A stretch of DNA of 33,363 bases. It comes from Candidatus Woesearchaeota archaeon. Lineage in GTDB: Archaea > Nanobdellota > Nanobdellia > Woesearchaeales > JABMPP01. The stretch is taken from contig JAGVYD010000021.1 in the NCBI GenBank assembly GCA_018303405.1, positions 1-33,363 of the forward strand, given 5' to 3'. This document shows positions 6,330-19,340 of the stretch, in pieces (positions within the stretch are counted from its first letter, which is position 1; each line of letters starts with the position of its first letter). The translations under genes and the position numbers were made by a program. The notes under the pieces were generated by a model. The model saw only the letters and a program-made list of their open reading frames with translations, was not told the DNA's origin and searched no databases.

Positions 6330-6350
6330 TATCCGAGGCTGATGCAAAGC

Positions 6351-6420
6351 ACCTATAAATATTTTTCGCTTTTGCCGACGGTAATTCCGAGGACAAAGTT
6401 GTCATTATACGAGGATAAAA
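6351..6420 (+). promoter_or_regulatory. Conserved upstream element R1 of the HTH gene at 6513
   Basis: About 70 bases that match 7536-7608 closely: TATTTTTCG, GCCGACGG (6374-6381), CCGAGGACAAAGTTGTCAT and a following ATAC. The core GACAAAGTTGTC (6392-6403) is an inverted repeat with GACAA/TTGTC half sites. Both copies lie about 100-110 bases before the start codons of paralogous multi-HTH genes, so it may be their own operator. An A/T-rich TATA-like start (CTATAAAT) leaves open that the element is transcribed as a small RNA. Confidence 0.55.
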
Positions 6421-6512
6421 ACAAGGCACACCTTCTTACCTCCCAATAATCAAGGTTAATCTGCTCGAATTCCCGGTAAATCTTTTTAAATAATCAATGC
6501 TGTCTTTTTCAA

Positions 6513-7484
6513 ATGACTCGAGAATTGCAACAGGAAACAAAGGACCTCCTTGACCGCCTCCATAGAGAGGGTGGCCACACCTTCAAGGAAATGGCACAAA
6601 GGGCAGAGATCTCAAGTACATCTGTCATGAATTATATACGTGCACGTGAAAGAGGATACAGCTCCACAACTGAATACCTTAAGGAAAAGAGAAAGAAATA
6701 CAGACGGAAACATTATCTAAGACATGAACGTTGGGAGGAAGCTATTGCAAATGCCCCGGAGGCAGGCAGAAAATTGGCAGAGATGATACACTCTTACATT
6801 ACCGAAACCGGAGAAACATTGAAAAAACTGTCATCCAACACCGGAATTCCTTATTCTTGGTTGCGCCGATACAATTATGCGCTGTCATGGCCCTCTGAAG
6901 AGCATTTAAATCTGTTAGCTTCGTATATTGAACCAGTTCGGATGTATCGGGACGGAGTGATGAGCAAAACAAATGAAAGGCCTGAGGCAGGGCAGGGAGG
7001 TGCAAGAAAGACAGAATATCTCGATGCCTCGCAGTATCGGCAATTACGTGATGCTAGGCAAGCATCAACTCTGGCAAGCAATGGTGGCAAGCCACGAATT
7101 GCGCCACTGGGCTTTGAAATTAAAAACATTGTGCAGGAAGATTCAACACTTGATTATATACTCAGTCCAGAGATTGACATGAATCGCAGCAACTCTAACA
7201 TGGACCCTGAGTTCGTGGCCGAAATCATCAAGAAGCATTTTATCATGAATTTGAGAACCCAGAAATGGCTTGTTGAGCACCTTGACCGCGAATTAACATT
7301 AGAGGATATTGTGATTGTCACGCCTTCAAGCAAGAACCCGTACAAGTATCACATCGAGGCAGCCCTGCCCCACGCTATGCAAAAGCAATTCCGCAGGTTT
7401 GTGAATGACTTGAAGCGGAAATTGGCGCCTAGCACTGTCAGTGGCCGGCCAAGGCTAGAAAGCCATAAGAATGACGCGCAATAA
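6513..7484 (+). CDS. Multi-HTH DNA-binding protein, copy 1 of a duplicated family
   Basis: 323 residues. Two helix-turn-helix-like regions are visible: GHTFKEMAQRAEISSTSVMN at about 21-40 and GETLKKLSSNTGIPYSWLRR at about 97-116. After a variable linker comes a C-terminal domain (about 195-315) with PRIAPLGFEIKNI, MDPEFVAEIIKKH, LTLEDIVIVT and a final helix FRRFVNDLKRKLA. The same C-terminal domain ends the protein at 7699-9036 (LDPELAAADLKEH, FSLEDIVTVT, FRGFYRVLKRALA), so the two are paralogs. TTTTTAAATAAT at 6483-6494 is the TATA box, about 25 bp before the ATG, so the mRNA is leaderless. It is probably a transcriptional regulator; the target is unknown but may include its own upstream element. 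I cannot name the C-terminal domain. Confidence 0.65.
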   Translation: MTRELQQETKDLLDRLHREGGHTFKEMAQRAEISSTSVMNYIRARERGYSSTTEYLKEKRKKYRRKHYLRHERWEEAIANAPEAGRKLAEMIHSYITETGETLKKLSSNTGIPYSWLRRYNYALSWPSEEHLNLLASYIEPVRMYRDGVMSKTNERPEAGQGGARKTEYLDASQYRQLRDARQASTLASNGGKPRIAPLGFEIKNIVQEDSTLDYILSPEIDMNRSNSNMDPEFVAEIIKKHFIMNLRTQKWLVEHLDRELTLEDIVIVTPSSKNPYKYHIEAALPHAMQKQFRRFVNDLKRKLAPSTVSGRPRLESHKNDAQ

Positions 7485-7490
7485 AGGAAG

Positions 7491-7512
7491 AAAAAGCCTT
7501 ATTTGGCTTTTT
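7491..7512 (+). terminator. Intrinsic-type terminator after the first HTH gene
   Basis: AAAAAGCC (7491-7498), loop TTATTT, GGCTTTTT (7505-7512): an 8-bp perfect stem ending in five T, four bases after the stop codon. The equivalent position after the second HTH gene (9043-9063) has the weaker GCCT-GTTT-AGGC version. Confidence 0.6.
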
Positions 7513-7537
7513 CCATGATTCTGCTGACAGTTGTGCC
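7499..7537 (-). pseudogene. 3-prime remnant of a DUF5679 zinc-ribbon gene
   Basis: Read on the minus strand this gives GTTVSRIMEKAK then a stop, matching the last residues GTKVSRIMGKA of the intact gene at 9054-9200. Nucleotide identity covers about 65 bases, from the HTH stop codon into this fragment. Upstream codons, including all four Cys, are missing: the sequence passes straight into element R2. This is the footprint of a tandem duplication whose junction lies near 7536. Confidence 0.65.
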
Positions 7538-7608
7538 CCTATACTTATTTTTCGTTTTAGCCGACGGACACACCGAGGACAAAGTTGTCATCATACAAAT
7601 ATAAAAAG
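7536..7608 (+). promoter_or_regulatory. Conserved upstream element R2 of the HTH gene at 7699
   Basis: Second copy of the element at 6351-6420, with GCCGACGG (7560-7567) and the inverted repeat GACAAAGTTGTC (7578-7589). The two copies agree at most positions over about 65 bases, clearly more than the proteins they precede. The actual TATA box of the downstream gene is separate (AATTTTAAAAAT, 7666-7677, about 27 bp from the ATG), so this element acts upstream of the core promoter or as an RNA. Confidence 0.55.
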
Positions 7609-7698: not shown

Positions 7699-9036
7699 AT
7701 GACACTGCGTCTGACACCACAACAACTTGCACAACTGGACAGGTATTACCTGCAGAGTTCGGGTTTTGAAAGCCTTTCCAGGGAAGCCATTATAGGTTAT
7801 GCACATAAAATGGCGATTACATCCTATGCTGTCAAGAAGCATTTCCAGAGCATTGAAAGCGGACAGCGCAAGATCCCGGATTATGTAAAGGAACAATTCC
7901 AAAAGGGAGAGCCGCTAAAATTTCCGAATAATCGCGAAACTAAACGGCTGGAGGAACTTGCGCAGGCGCCGCCGGATAATATAGCCGTTGCAAGAATCAT
8001 CGAAGGATATGCCAGGCAAAACAATATGTCACAGAGAGCTATTGCAGATTTGGCACATGTGAGTTACTCCGTGATAACACATTATACCCATGGCTCTTAT
8101 TTTCCGAGCAGTGAATCTTTGTCCAGGCTTGCAGGCCTTCCCAATTTGCCAGAGCCTGATAGGAAAGTTCTTTTGGCTTACATCAGCCAAATCCAGGCTA
8201 AAAAAGAGGCCGCGAAAAAGGGGCACCCCAAAAAAGAAAAGGAAGCATCAAAAAAAGATACTAAGAATATACCCGATGTACCTGGCCCACGAGAAGCTCA
8301 GCGCCTTGCACACATTGCCACGCTTCCAGGCGAAAACCAATGGATTGCGAATGCCATACATGGCTATATGGCCGACAATGACTTAGGCATCCATGAATTG
8401 TCCAAAAAGTCAGAGATTTCTGTTAAATACATATCCTCTATGCACTATGGCAATATGATTCCCAGCAAAAAAATAGCTTGGCGCCTGGCCAGGCTGCCAA
8501 ACTGGGATGATTCCGTCAGGGACAGGCTGCTGGATTACGCTGGTGAAATGCAAAACATAGATGCACAAGCACATCCTGAACCAGCCAATGCCAGGCAAAA
8601 GACCGGGGCACAGCAAACTTCCCTGGTTGAACGTATCTCCCGAATACCGATACTTGGTTATGATATTGAAGGCATAAAATTTGCGGGAAACACCATTGCC
8701 TATAAACTGAAGGAAGAGGCAAGTGGGGAGAATGAAGAAGGAAATCAGGGGCTTGACCCTGAGCTTGCAGCAGCAGACTTAAAGGAACACACTATCAAGG
8801 CATTGGTATCAAGCGGGTTTGCAAAGTACTATGACCCAAGCTTTTCCCTGGAGGACATTGTCACTGTAACCCTCATAGGAAAAAAGGGACACTTGTATTA
8901 TGTTGACACGGGCCTGCCGTCTAAGGCTTACAATGAATTCAGGGGATTTTACCGCGTGCTCAAGAGAGCCCTGGCAAGCCAGTCAAAAAAGGCTAATCAT
9001 GCCATTAGAAATGAAACGCGTGCCGATGCAAAATAA
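7699..9036 (+). CDS. Multi-HTH DNA-binding protein, copy 2, with three HTH regions
   Basis: 445 residues. HTH-like regions: about 27-55 (SREAIIGYAHKMAITSYAVK), about 95-150 (NNMSQRAIADLAHVSYSVIT, a good XRE-type helix pair) and about 215-275 (NDLGIHELSKKSEISVKYIS). Between the second and third lies a Lys/Glu-rich linker (about 167-190). The C-terminal domain (about 310-430) matches copy 1. Relative to copy 1 it has an extra HTH unit, so repeats have been gained or lost since duplication; each unit ends in a similar RLAxLPN/RLAGLPN phrase, showing internal duplication. The start has a TATA box 27 bp upstream and is leaderless. It is probably a regulator that recognises an extended or repeated site. 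A convergent DUF5679 gene follows 17 bases later. Confidence 0.7.
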   Translation: MTLRLTPQQLAQLDRYYLQSSGFESLSREAIIGYAHKMAITSYAVKKHFQSIESGQRKIPDYVKEQFQKGEPLKFPNNRETKRLEELAQAPPDNIAVARIIEGYARQNNMSQRAIADLAHVSYSVITHYTHGSYFPSSESLSRLAGLPNLPEPDRKVLLAYISQIQAKKEAAKKGHPKKEKEASKKDTKNIPDVPGPREAQRLAHIATLPGENQWIANAIHGYMADNDLGIHELSKKSEISVKYISSMHYGNMIPSKKIAWRLARLPNWDDSVRDRLLDYAGEMQNIDAQAHPEPANARQKTGAQQTSLVERISRIPILGYDIEGIKFAGNTIAYKLKEEASGENEEGNQGLDPELAAADLKEHTIKALVSSGFAKYYDPSFSLEDIVTVTLIGKKGHLYYVDTGLPSKAYNEFRGFYRVLKRALASQSKKANHAIRNETRADAK

Positions 9037-9053
9037 AGGAAGAAAAAGCCTGT

Positions 9054-9200
9054 TTAGGCCTTTCCCATGATTCTGCTGACCTTGGTGCCGCACTTCGGGC
9101 ACTTGCCTTGCATCATTTTCATGCCGTTCTTCGTAATTCTTTCAGTAGGGTTTTGCATCTCAACTTGTTGCTTGCACTTCATGCATCTTCCTGTTACCAT
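9054..9200 (-). CDS. DUF5679-like small zinc-ribbon protein
   Basis: 48 residues, too short for many gene finders. CMKCK near the N-terminus and CPKCG near the C-terminus make a four-Cys zinc ribbon, with the typical QNPTERITKNGMKMMQGKC between them and VSRIMGKA at the end. This matches DUF5679, a family of unknown function common in small archaeal and CPR genomes. The minus-strand GAGGTGGGACTAA before the ATG is a strong Shine-Dalgarno. CTATATATGATT (about 9265-9276, minus strand) is a likely TATA box with a leader of about 40 bases. A broken copy lies at 7499-7537. Confidence 0.8.
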   Translation of the reverse strand: MVTGRCMKCKQQVEMQNPTERITKNGMKMMQGKCPKCGTKVSRIMGKA

Positions 9201-9335: not shown

Positions 9336-10367
9336 TTACCTTATCAGAACTTGCTGGCCGCCTTTTACTATTTTTCCTATTTTAGCGCATGAAAATTTGG
9401 CCTTTCTTATTGCTGCCATTGTCTTTGCTTCATCTTTCTGGTCGACTACCAGGACAAATCCAATGCCCATGTTAAATGTGCGATACATATCATCCTTTGG
9501 CACTTTTCCAAGCGTTTCAATCATATTGAACACCGGCAAAACCTTCCATGACCTTGTGTCGAGCTCTGCTGAGCATGATTTTGGCAGGACCCTTGGGATA
9601 TTTTCGACAAGGCCCCCTCCAGTGATATGCGCCATGCCTTTTATGCCAGTTCTTGCATTCATCACAGCCTGCACTGCCTTGAGGTAAGAGGGATGAATGG
9701 CCATCAGGGCTTCTTTTATGCTTTGGCCACCCAATCCAGCAGGCTTGTCGTTCAGCTGCATCTTTGCCATGTCAAAAAAAACCTTATTTGCAAGGGAATA
9801 GCCATTTGTCTGCAAGCCATTTGAAAATATGCCTATGACTGCATGGCCGGGCCTTATTTCCTTTCCAGTCACGGCATTTTTCCTGTCCAAAATGCCGACG
9901 ATAAACCCTGCAAGGTCAAAGTCGCCAGGAGAATACAATCCAGGCATTTGCGCTGTTTCTCCCCCTATAAGGCTTAAGCCGTTTGCTTTGCACGCAGCTG
10001 CAACACCTTTGACAATCTGTTCCACAACCATCGGCTCTGCCTTGCTGAATGCAAGATAATCCAAAAAGAATAATGGCTTTGCACCCATGACTAATATGTC
10101 ATTCACGCAGTGGTTTACAAGGTCCTGGCCAACTGTGTCATACATGCCGCTCATTGATGCAAGCTTAATCTTTGTGCCAACACCATCAGCACTTGAGACC
10201 AGGACAGGATCCTTCATGCCTGTCTTGCCAATAGAGTACATTGCACCAAAAGCGCCAAAATCAGCCAATACATTCTTTGAGAAAGTGCTTCGGACATGCT
10301 CGCCAATCCTCTTTTTTGCAAGGTTGTTCTTGCTTATGTCCACGCCACTGTCCTTGTAGGTGACCAT
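9336..10367 (-). CDS. purM: Phosphoribosylformylglycinamidine cyclo-ligase (AIR synthetase)
   Basis: 343 residues. It catalyses the ATP-dependent ring closure of FGAM to aminoimidazole ribotide in purine synthesis. Family features: MVTYKDSGVDISKNN at the start, FGAMYSIGK, the nucleotide/metal segment SSADGVGTKIKLA, NDILVMGAKPLFFLDY, GGETAQMPGLY, DLAGFIVGI, SNGLQTNGYSL and HITGGGLVENIPRVLP. The open frame continues upstream to 10592, but that part is antisense to a repeated element and not purM-like. The minus-strand TTTATATA box (third T at 10393) lies 26 bp before ATG 10367; ATG 10373 is two codons further. No other purine gene is nearby. Function is secure. Confidence 0.95.
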   Translation of the reverse strand: MVTYKDSGVDISKNNLAKKRIGEHVRSTFSKNVLADFGAFGAMYSIGKTGMKDPVLVSSADGVGTKIKLASMSGMYDTVGQDLVNHCVNDILVMGAKPLFFLDYLAFSKAEPMVVEQIVKGVAAACKANGLSLIGGETAQMPGLYSPGDFDLAGFIVGILDRKNAVTGKEIRPGHAVIGIFSNGLQTNGYSLANKVFFDMAKMQLNDKPAGLGGQSIKEALMAIHPSYLKAVQAVMNARTGIKGMAHITGGGLVENIPRVLPKSCSAELDTRSWKVLPVFNMIETLGKVPKDDMYRTFNMGIGFVLVVDQKDEAKTMAAIRKAKFSCAKIGKIVKGGQQVLIR

Positions 10368-10386
10368 GCTCATTTGAAACCGCCGC

Positions 10387-10399
10387 ATATATAAAAAGG
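10387..10399. promoter_or_regulatory. TATA box shared by purM and structured RNA element A
   Basis: ATATATAAAAAGG. On the minus strand it is TTTTTATATAT, 26 bp from the purM ATG. On the plus strand TATAAAAAGG starts at 10390, and 27 bp further is 10417, the first base of the outermost helix of element A. This is the same arrangement as folC and element D. Confidence 0.6.
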
Positions 10400-10403
10400 T
10401 TCT

Positions 10404-10581
10404 GACTCGGCTGGCCTTGCCCGAAAAGTGAGTTTGGGCATCAATTTTGCGAAGCCCATTCCCGGAGGGATTAAGCATTTTTCGGGGTTGCAGAGGAGAA
10501 AAATGCAATTCGAAGCTGCAAAGCTGAGCAGATGCCCAAACCGAGCCGGAAGGCGAGTTTTCGGGCAAAGCCGACTCGGCT
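10404..10581. repeat. 9-bp direct repeats GACTCGGCT bracketing element A
   Basis: GACTCGGCT occurs at 10404-10412 and at 10573-10581, enclosing 160 bases that contain element A. Element B is likewise bracketed by a different 9-bp direct repeat. Different repeats around copies of one sequence are what target-site duplication leaves. The left repeat lies between the TATA box and the RNA start, which argues for caution. Confidence 0.45.
10417..10568 (+). ncRNA. Structured RNA element, full-length copy A
   Basis: Helices: P1 TTGCCCGAAAA (10417-10427) with 10558-10568, 11 bp; P2 GTTTGGGCATC (10432-10442) with 10531-10541, 11 bp; P3 GCATTTTTC (10475-10483) with 10498-10506, closing the loop GGGGTTGCAGAGGA; P4 AGCT-GCAA-AGCT (10514-10525), a GNRA-capped hairpin; P5 GCC-GGAA-GGC (10545-10554), GNRA-capped, followed by GAGTTTTCGG. 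It is nearly identical to copy B (18638-18784, opposite strand) and shares the structure and loop with the more diverged copies C and D. The 5-prime end coincides with the start predicted from TATAAAAAGG. No open frame in it is plausible on either strand. No known RNA class recognised. Confidence 0.7.
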
Positions 10582-10602
10582 CCTATCAGCATATGTCAAG
10601 AA

Positions 10603-10890
10603 CCACCGGTCAGACGGAGTCACTTTGTTCGTCGGTTTGCTAAAGCAAACGACCGGTGGAATGTCATGTTTAGTTCCACAGACCTCGTGGTTAGTTTGGA
10701 ATGCTTCGCATTCCTAACTCCATAGAAACCTCGCGGTTTCTGGGGCACCGAAAATGCCGTGCATTTTCCAGTGTCCCAAAAATTGTTTCACAATTTTTGA
10801 GGACTTGAGCATGATCAGAATTTTCCAACCGAGTGAGAGAAAATGCAAGCAAAGCTTGCCACCAGTCACAGACTGGATGGAAAATTCTGA
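10603..10890. ncRNA. Dense array of perfect hairpins, candidate ornate RNA
   Basis: In 288 bases: CCACCGGTC (10603-10611) pairs with 10651-10659 and encloses GACGGA/TTCGTC and GTTTGC-TAAA-GCAAAC, a three-way junction; CCAC/GTGG (10676-10690); AGTT-T-GGAATGC-TTC-GCATTCC-T-AACT (10693-10719); AGAAACC-TCGC-GGTTTCT (10724-10741); GGGGCAC/GTGTCCC (10742-10777) around GAAAATGC-CGT-GCATTTTC; CAAAAATTG-TTTCA-CAATTTTTG (10777-10799); and TCAGAATTTTCCA (10815-10827) pairing over 13 bp with 10878-10890, enclosing GCAAGC-AAA-GCTTGC and CCAGTC-ACA-GACTGG, a second three-way junction. Nearly every base is in a helix or tight loop. It begins 35 bases after element A and ends 4 bases short of the rhomboid stop codon, so it could belong to a plus-strand transcript with A or to the rhomboid 3-prime UTR. 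Strand is undecided. Confidence 0.65.
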
Positions 10891-10894
10891 CATT

Positions 10895-11719
10895 CTATGG
10901 CAAGACAGCACTGATTTTGTCCTGCAGGAAGAAAAAGTAAATGCCGTAAATCACCGCAATTGATGCGATATTGATGAGCAATCCCTTTTTCAGCTTGGCC
11001 TTGTCCTGGAAATTCAGGAAGAACATGGTGGCCATGACTGAAAGAAAGCCACCAACATGCGCCAAATGGCCTATGCCATCTTCGGCCGGATTCAGGATTC
11101 CCGTTATATCTCCATAAATTGCTATCCAGCCCACAACCATGATTGGCAAAGGGACAATAAGCTCGTAAGTCAGGTAAAACGGGTCCATGAGGATGGCGAC
11201 TGAGACAAGGCCCATGAGCGCGCCTGATGCGCCCACTCCTCCCATGTTCTCGCCAAGCAGGTACAGGCTTATCAGGGAAGAAAATATATTGGAAACAACC
11301 AGGGCGCCAAAATAAACAGCGGCTGTCTTCCAGAATCCCAATGTCCTTTCCACGGCACGGCCGAATATGAAAATAGCTGCCATATTCCCGAGCAGATGGG
11401 CAAGGTTCAAGTGCAAAAAGCCAGAGGTGATAAGCGTGTGCCATTGGGAAATCTGCAATACGTCTGAAGGATAGTTGGCCAGGGATGACATCGTTGCCTC
11501 GCTGAATGTCGAGGAGTAAAAAAATGCTGCAATATTCAGCAAAATTATCATGACTGTGAATTTGGGCTCCCAGACAAACCGAAAGAAATCGGCGAATGGC
11601 TTGAACAAATCACCAACCTGCTTCTTTTTGAAAATGATCATGACCAGCGTTATGGGTGTCAGGAGGATATTCCAGATGAATTTCCAGACAAACTGGGATT
11701 CAGATTCAATTTCAGCCAT
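10895..11719 (-). CDS. Rhomboid-family intramembrane serine protease
   Basis: 274 residues. After an N-terminal amphipathic part and one extra hydrophobic segment (about 15-30) come about six membrane helices. Rhomboid hallmarks: HTLITSGFLHLNLAHLLGNM (the HxxxN of TM2), GVGASGALMGLV with the GxSG nucleophile Ser, and GIGHLAHVGGFLSVM with the catalytic His in TM6. It should cleave membrane-spanning substrates inside the bilayer. TTTATTTATT (11744-11753, minus strand) is a TATA box 24-28 bp from the ATG, so it is leaderless. A second rhomboid gene lies at 17446-18057; the two are distinct in length and N-terminus. The 3-prime end runs into the hairpin array. Activity is expected from intact catalytic residues; substrates are unknown. 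Confidence 0.9.
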   Translation of the reverse strand: MAEIESESQFVWKFIWNILLTPITLVMIIFKKKQVGDLFKPFADFFRFVWEPKFTVMIILLNIAAFFYSSTFSEATMSSLANYPSDVLQISQWHTLITSGFLHLNLAHLLGNMAAIFIFGRAVERTLGFWKTAAVYFGALVVSNIFSSLISLYLLGENMGGVGASGALMGLVSVAILMDPFYLTYELIVPLPIMVVGWIAIYGDITGILNPAEDGIGHLAHVGGFLSVMATMFFLNFQDKAKLKKGLLINIASIAVIYGIYFFFLQDKISAVLP

Positions 11720-18591: not shown

Positions 18592-18628
18592 GGTTCCAGT
18601 ATGGCACTATTTAGTATTTAAAATTTGT

Positions 18629-18793
18629 GTGCGGAATGTCCTTGTCCGAAAACCCGCCTTCCGGCTCGGTTTGGGCATCCGCTCAGCATTGCAGCTTCCC
18701 ATGCATTGCATTTTTCTCCTCTGCAACCCCGAAAAATGCTTAACCCCTCCTGGAATGGGCTTCGCAAAATTGATGCCCAAACTCGTGCGGAAT
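18629..18793. repeat. 9-bp direct repeats GTGCGGAAT bracketing element B
   Basis: GTGCGGAAT at 18629-18637 and at 18785-18793 enclose exactly the 147 bases of element B. The repeat differs from the one around element A. Its right copy (left end in element orientation) abuts the point where B lacks the outer helix strand present in A. Confidence 0.5.
18638..18784 (-). ncRNA. Structured RNA element, copy B, lacking the 5-prime strand of P1
   Basis: Minus-strand copy almost identical to A. P2 is 18772-18782 with 18669-18679, P3 is 18731-18739 with 18708-18716 around the same 14-base loop (18717-18730), and P5 is GCC-GGAA-GGC (18656-18665), followed by GGGTTTTCGGACAAGG. The main difference inside is around P4 (AAGCTGCAATGCT instead of AGCT-GCAA-AGCT). 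In A the 3-prime TTTTCGGGCAA pairs with a 5-prime TTGCCCGAAAA; B keeps the 3-prime part but its 5-prime part is absent, so it is 5-prime shortened. It follows the stop of the 18807-19340 gene by 22 bases on the same strand and has no TATA box of its own. Confidence 0.65.
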
Positions 18794-18806
18794 TGTTGCC
18801 AGAAAT

Positions 18807-19340
18807 TCAATTGACCTTGAAATCCAGGGCTTCCATCACTTTGTCAAGCTGGTATTCCATTTTCAATTTTTCCCACTTTTCGCTCGAAATCCGCGGGTCA
18901 TTTGGGACCAAGCCTGTGACGCCGAGCAGGCCAGGCTGCCGTTTCGTGTATTTCTCAACCTGCACAACAATCCTGACATCATCTGCCGTGAGCCTGCTGC
19001 CATCCTGGTCATTGAAAAGAGAGGCTGATGTTGCGCTTGCCAGGTTTATTGAATCATACAAGTTGCGTGTCTTGGTCTGGCCGAGAAAGCCGAAAATCTC
19101 ATTGTAATCAACTTTGCTGCCCTCAAGGTAGATTGGGTTTGGGTCAGCGCCGTGCAGGAACCTGCTGTATGAAGTTGATATGTTCGAGTCTTCTGTTTCC
19201 TCGGCTTCCGCCGCGCCTGCCACATCATCATTCAGCTCTTCAATTGCCTGTTCAACTTCAGACATAGAAATAGCCCTGATTGCCCGCATTTCCTCCAATT
19301 CCCTCTCCACAGTTGACTCCAATTCCGGTGTTGTTGCCAT
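18807..19340 (-). CDS. Unrecognised soluble protein with N-terminal coiled coil
   Basis: About 177 residues. Residues 1-50 are strongly acidic and heptad-like (TVERELEEMRAIRAISMSEV, then EQAIEELNDDVAGAAEAEE), probably a coiled coil. The rest is a small alpha/beta region with YNEIFGFLGQTKTRNLYDSI, SRLTADDVRIVVQVEKYTKR and a C-terminal helix KWEKLKMEYQLDKVMEALDF. ATG at 19340 is chosen; a TTG at 19373 would add hydrophobic residues unlike the rest. It follows proS on the same strand after 86 bases. No function assigned. Confidence 0.6.
   Translation of the reverse strand: MATTPELESTVERELEEMRAIRAISMSEVEQAIEELNDDVAGAAEAEETEDSNISTSYSRFLHGADPNPIYLEGSKVDYNEIFGFLGQTKTRNLYDSINLASATSASLFNDQDGSRLTADDVRIVVQVEKYTKRQPGLLGVTGLVPNDPRISSEKWEKLKMEYQLDKVMEALDFKVN

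Follow-up and report, generated by a model that had tools for sequence, protein, structure and literature searches.

A hairpin array in a woesearchaeal genome belongs to a previously undescribed and very probably mobile DNA family across Woesearchaeales

The dense hairpin array at 10603-10890 of the window (the whole 33,363-nucleotide stretch of a Candidatus Woesearchaeota contig that was analysed) belongs, as a single copy, to a family of very likely mobile DNA that occurs across the Woesearchaeales and had not been described before; a literature search in open-licence papers returned no description of this family. Its canonical form is about 150 nt long (~152 nt) and reads ATGTCA, three-way hairpin I, TGAGCATGCTCA, three-way hairpin II and TGACAT, with two related units placed head to head. 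The window copy is a family element that gained two extra hairpin blocks. The element is very likely mobile, and the likely explanation of the evidence as a whole is a non-autonomous mobile DNA element of paired three-way-junction units, probably moved as folded single-stranded DNA with an enzyme acting in trans.

The initial annotation had described inverted repeats with small loops, almost no spacers and two three-way-junction-like folds, all of which were found at 10603-10890, and had judged their density to be far above chance. Folding bears this out: as RNA, the + strand reaches a minimum free energy of -124 kcal/mol versus -75.8 +/- 4.9 for dinucleotide shuffles (z -9.8; 0 of 200), the - strand also falls outside the shuffled range (z -8.05), and folding as single-stranded DNA gives z of -9.3 and -9.1. 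The place was right and the limits slightly short, as the conserved unit runs from TGTCA at 10594 to TGACA at 10892, edges that are based on the flank profile of 101 copies, two empty sites and homologous copies. It ends two bases, rather than four, before the rhomboid stop codon (10895-10897). Likewise, the hairpins of the 288 nt array are real but are not a single design: they make up a ~152 nt element with nested blocks of 36 and 111 nt. The parts and neighbours of the window copy are as follows:

10594-10892, + strand: complete copy of the element from TGTCA to TGACA, made up of the canonical ~152 nt and the two nested hairpin blocks
10594-10692, + strand: half unit I, 5' part, starting TGTCAAGAACCACC (alignments A1 and A4; covariation; near-identical copies L003-L005)
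10596-10607 and 10687-10692, + strand: closing stem P1 of half unit I, 5' strand and first 3'-strand segment (GTGGTT)
10603-10659, + strand: 9 bp hairpin of unit I, arms CCACCGGTC (10603-10611) and GACCGGTGG (10651-10659), bearing the 36 nt block at its tip (sequence, fold)
10615-10650, + strand: 36 nt hairpin block nested within the unit I hairpin, at its tip (comparison of copies)
10693-10803, + strand: nested 111 nt block of four hairpins, splitting the 3' strand of stem P1 between GTGGTT and CTTGA (comparison of copies)
10804-10816, + strand: junction of the two halves, comprising CTTGA at the end of P1 and the near-palindromic centre GAGCATGATC (GAGCATGCTC in the canonical form); A1 and A4 show almost no variation here
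10815-10892, + strand: half unit II, stem TCAGAATTTTCC/GGAAAATTCTGA (10815-10826/10879-10890; fold, compensatory changes)
10845-10859 and 10862-10876, + strand: inner hairpins GCAAGC-AAA-GCTTGC and CCAGTC-ACA-GACTGG of half unit II, enclosed by that stem
10893-10898, + strand: right flank TTCTAT, a variant form of T(T/A)TTA(A/T), the side of the target that is conserved; it takes in the end of the - strand rhomboid stop codon (flank profile, list of right flanks)
10895-11719, - strand: gene of the rhomboid family whose end abuts the right edge of the element (PF01694, E 5.2e-23)
10413-10572, + strand: element A, an adjacent unrelated dispersed repeat, separate from the hairpin element (genome copies; inverted copy at 18642-18784)

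The window copy is placed between purM (with element A) and the rhomboid gene. Its 36 nt block is present in copies L003, L004 and L005 and missing from L002, L006, L008, L009, L013 and L014; in copies without it, query positions 5-25 run into 62-103, and in L006, L008, L013 and L014 the 9 bp hairpin has a simple ANA-triloop form. The 111 nt block is also present in L002, the L006 copy passes straight from query 103 to 215, and the same junction takes other insertions in L022 and L032. An extra hairpin block of ~53 nt was seen in these last two and in three copies of another genome (G232:C9:73496-73698, C10:123422-123624 and C6:51329-51531) between GGTGGTT and TTTGAGC, which is the same junction as that of the 111 nt block and a recurrent insertion point. 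At 1501-1696 of L027 (G045), a paired hairpin of ~53 nt, TGTCAAAAA...TTTTTGAGCATGCTCAGAAATGC...GCATTTCTGACA, is nested at the centre of a larger element, which suggests that it is a minimal mobile unit. In addition, two paralogous genes 3.7 kb apart (L006 and L014; G000:C14:70295 and 74027) each end at an element, and the left halves of the two elements match while their right halves are of two different types, a sequence pattern that suggests recombination between element copies.

The neighbouring element A, ~160 nt long, is likewise a dispersed repeat and occurs about 25-30 times in the genome. Upstream of purM it is open in frame (ORF 9336-10592, - strand; AIRS domain from about residue 130), as it is once more in ORF 18625-19107, the common peptide being LHFSPLQPRKMLNPSxNGLRKIDAQT, and it may be a coding palindromic element too. 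Elsewhere in the window, 7473-7607, 9025-9091 and 6349-6421 are paralogous stretches in which downstream sequence recurs (83% over 65 nt and 82% over 73 nt) after two helix-turn-helix-like genes (6513-7484 and 7699-9036).

The hairpin element is dispersed within and among genomes. A DNA search of the genome that the window comes from (1.6 Mb in 23 contigs) gave ~10 further copies or parts at unrelated places, up to 99% identical. Copies at non-homologous loci reach 99-100% identity over ~147 nt, and in G232 some copies at separate loci are 99-100% identical. Copies are also present in other families of the order, and every named GenBank record that matches the core exactly is from Candidatus Woesearchaeota. 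A covariance model, R1, built from 16 canonical copies (alignment A1), matches 191 of the 353 genomes of the order, which comprises DPANN archaea of Woesearchaeales type, and a further 14 genomes from sister orders in the same class, both counts being lower bounds because of strict filters; among high-quality genomes, 99 of 180 are matched. Genomes with the family often carry tens of copies each, and G232 and G070 give about 50 matches each at E <= 1e-5, a number that includes reverse-strand hits on the same copy, so that distinct copies are fewer. Rfam yielded no match at the gathering score and only sub-threshold chance hits at a permissive threshold, and no element match was found in viral contigs (two patterns) or in phage and plasmid collections (distant blastn).

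In the first half of the element, TGTCA is followed by the stem CAARAACCACC, which surrounds a CC-RRTC-ANA-GAYY-GG hairpin and a variable hairpin, and then by TGAGCATGCTCA; in the second half, the stem CAGAAWTTTCC surrounds a variable hairpin and a CCAGTC-ANA-GACTGG hairpin and is followed by TGACA. The triloops are short and A-rich, and the hairpin foot is TGTCA/TGAGCATG in alignments A1 and A4. Since the second half reads ATGTCA-hairpin-TGAGCAT on the other strand, as the first half does on its own, the element amounts to one unit present twice in opposite orientations, and the covariance model also matches its own copies on the reverse strand.

In the flank profiles of 101 copies, the edges at TGTCA and TGACA are abrupt. 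The target is conserved on one side only: in the flanks of about 100 copies the right side is T(T/A)TTA(A/T) and the left side is almost free, with the element directly preceding T(T/A)TTA(A/T) on the + strand or directly following TTAAAA on the - strand. Inspection of the 101 flanks by eye revealed no consistent target duplication. About five of the 101 sampled copies lie inside genes, in frame: in a thioredoxin reductase (TrxR) and an archaeal GlmU-like enzyme of G051, in YgiQ and a TIGR01906 membrane protein of G049, and in a signal-anchored protein of G018. Solved homologues align on either side of the extra segment of ~50 residues (48 in TrxR). In G232, a sister species of the same genus, both the TrxR orthologue (86-88% identity) and the GlmU-like orthologue are without the insert. 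The empty TrxR site joins GGATAAAA to AAATAAAA, and the filled site holds 144 nt, TGTCGG...TTGACA, between them; the empty GlmU-like site joins TTGAAA to AACGAAAA, and the filled site holds 147 nt, TGTCGG...TGACA, with no duplication or loss in either case. The comparison is between two MAGs, and frame continuity together with the homologue alignments makes misassembly at the two sites unlikely. The element inserts cleanly without target duplication, sometimes in genes whose frame it keeps. A further in-gene insertion is possibly present at G254:C56:26940-27032, where an element-like peptide lies within a 524-codon open frame. At ~900-981 of L045 (G018), a tRNA-like sequence with apparent interruptions directly adjoins an element; ARAGORN calls no tRNA there.

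Base pairing is kept through compensatory changes. In alignment A4, made independently from 25 copies of which nearly all belong to different genera, the four helices reappear under RNAalifold, 97% of cells are paired, and 17 of 38 pairs show two-sided changes (94 cells). None of 500 shuffles reaches the observed covariation; kinship among sequences inflates such tests, but sliding the partners by 1-3 columns drops pairing to 35-52%. In half unit II, compensatory changes affect 9 of 16 stem pairs and 5 of 6 inner-hairpin pairs. The initial annotation had let its observation hang on conserved pairing in homologues, and the observation survives.

A strong fold with compensatory changes, and many copies directly after stop codons, would also suit a structured RNA or a 3' UTR structure or terminator serving the expression of adjacent genes, and the initial annotation had listed an ornate RNA and a 3' UTR structure beside a mobile DNA. 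However, G-U pairs are even between the strands (153 in the + fold vs 145 in the - fold; in A4, 19 G-T vs 16 A-C mismatches), which argues against an RNA strand because RNA would favour one strand, and the four combinations of neighbouring-gene orientation are found 12, 12, 12 and 11 times, with no preference. These two facts make an RNA or terminator role unlikely, and with the copies inside coding frames they led us to reject it; Rfam holds no such family, and the variable hairpins vary among copies. Overall, we consider such a role very improbable. The mobile-DNA option, by which a mobile element folds as a single strand, gains support from dispersed copies at unrelated sites and from precise empty sites without target duplication, as well as from pairing kept without G-U strand bias and from orientation domains along contigs. 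In nine genomes, 49 of 75 pairs of adjacent copies share orientation (p 0.004); a switch of orientation lies near 400 kb on G232:C6 (p 0.003). Such domains are expected if insertion follows the lagging strand, a coupling that these patterns would be consistent with; against it, GC skew at the switch is noisy without a clear inflection, and orc1/cdc6 was not found among ten proteins scanned near it.

The mobile unit consists of two homologous three-way-junction hairpins that face each other across the palindrome TGAGCATGCTCA and are bounded by TGTCA and TGACA, and it is inserted beside an A/T target without target duplication. We propose that it probably moves as folded single-stranded DNA, which would be recognised by an enzyme in trans. 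Transposition as a single strand seems somewhat favoured. The leading guess for the enzyme is a Y1/HUH TnpA-like transposase, since hairpin recognition, lack of target duplication and a one-sided short target are properties of IS200/IS605 Y1 systems; as the identity of the mobilising enzyme, Y1 falls just short of an even call. Against it, none of 31 Y1 loci has a confident element match: the window genome's own Y1 gene (L046) and 30 others are without element ends, and no parent insertion sequence sharing those ends was found among them. Y1 co-occurrence is weak, with 83 of 191 element-bearing genomes vs 42 of 162 others (odds ratio 2.2, p 0.0008, uncorrected for phylogeny and genome quality), and is contradicted by 34 of 70 element-rich genomes without a PF01797 (Y1) match. 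Moreover, the ends of IS200/IS605 elements are not inverted repeats, whereas those of the woesearchaeal element are. With about half of the rich genomes lacking PF01797, a folded substrate and no duplication, a different single-strand recombinase, such as another HUH enzyme or one akin to the integron integrase with its folded attC sites, is the most serious rival, though still doubtful; by eye, no attC-type core sites stood out at the ends. A classical MITE whose short inverted ends are acted on by a DDE transposase would account for the TG...CA termini and for a multicopy, mostly intergenic family, but the target-site duplication expected of DDE-type MITEs is absent at two exact empty sites and not visible in ~100 flanks, the conserved part is the internal hairpins and the target is one-sided, so that we hold it improbable. 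Least probable of all is passive spread without a transposase, by replication slippage or template switching with gene conversion: hairpin tips do gain and exchange blocks, as is typical of slippage, but the ends are exact and so are the 144 and 147 nt insertions at unrelated sites.

On the favoured reading, that of a folded, enzyme-mobilised DNA element, the closest likeness by analogy would be REPIN/IS200-like movement with gene insertions like those of Rickettsia palindromic elements. REPINs are inverted doublets of hairpin units that act as the mobile unit, with an expected single-stranded DNA intermediate (PMC3116915), and the woesearchaeal element likewise has an inverted hairpin doublet as its conserved replicating entity; like REPIN/BIME systems with RAYT, it is intergenic, multicopy and non-autonomous. 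In contrast, its units are three-way junctions of ~75 nt, whereas REPs are 20-40 nt, its foot is TGTCA rather than GTAG/GTGG (or CGTC), and a RAYT gene flanked by its own REPs has no counterpart among the 31 Y1 loci. In a published survey archaeal Y1 proteins belong only to IS200-type subclass 1.1 (PMC6006769), so a REPIN-like family there would be unusual. IS200/IS605 elements insert without target duplication through a hairpin-bound transposase (PMC7290912; PMC6006769), and they and PATEs share with the element subterminal hairpins, a short A/T target on one side and simple insertion; yet the element lacks tnpA/tnpB, has inverted repeats as ends and shares no ends with a resident tnpA-bearing element. 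Given the foot motif and the lack of a flanking transposase, the family is not filed as a REP or IS605 derivative. Rickettsia palindromic elements are hairpins of ~100-150 bp that lie in frame in conserved genes and add ~50 residues (PMC2229807; PMC10969869), and a review cites one archaeal case of palindromic elements in genes, Suyama et al. 2005 (PMC2229807). The woesearchaeal element also inserts in frame in conserved protein genes, but only about 5 of 101 sampled copies are genic as against nearly half of the Rickettsia elements, and it differs in sequence, in its two-unit architecture and in being archaeal and spread across much of an order. The archaeal precedent is reportedly the palindromic coding repeats of Methanocaldococcus jannaschii, which, by description only, are alike in being archaeal and fused into protein genes.

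DPANN archaea thereby gain a widely distributed family of very small mobile elements whose ends and empty sites are exact and whose structure is backed by many compensatory changes, which allows the mobilising enzyme to be sought by co-occurrence and tested in vitro. For annotation the family is a hazard, as copies yield spurious ORFs, false structured-RNA calls and insertions of ~50 residues in predicted proteins. Palindromic elements here lengthen conserved archaeal enzymes in frame, a kind of protein change best known from Rickettsia. More tentatively, and with the balance tilting against it, the family may represent a large unrecognised archaeal class of paired-hairpin mobile DNA in Woesearchaeales and sister orders, mobilised by some single-strand enzyme other than a RAYT or a resident IS200 transposase, and capable of lengthening proteins in frame. 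If so, a symbiotic archaeal lineage would have evolved its own system resembling REPINs and Rickettsia palindromic elements combined.
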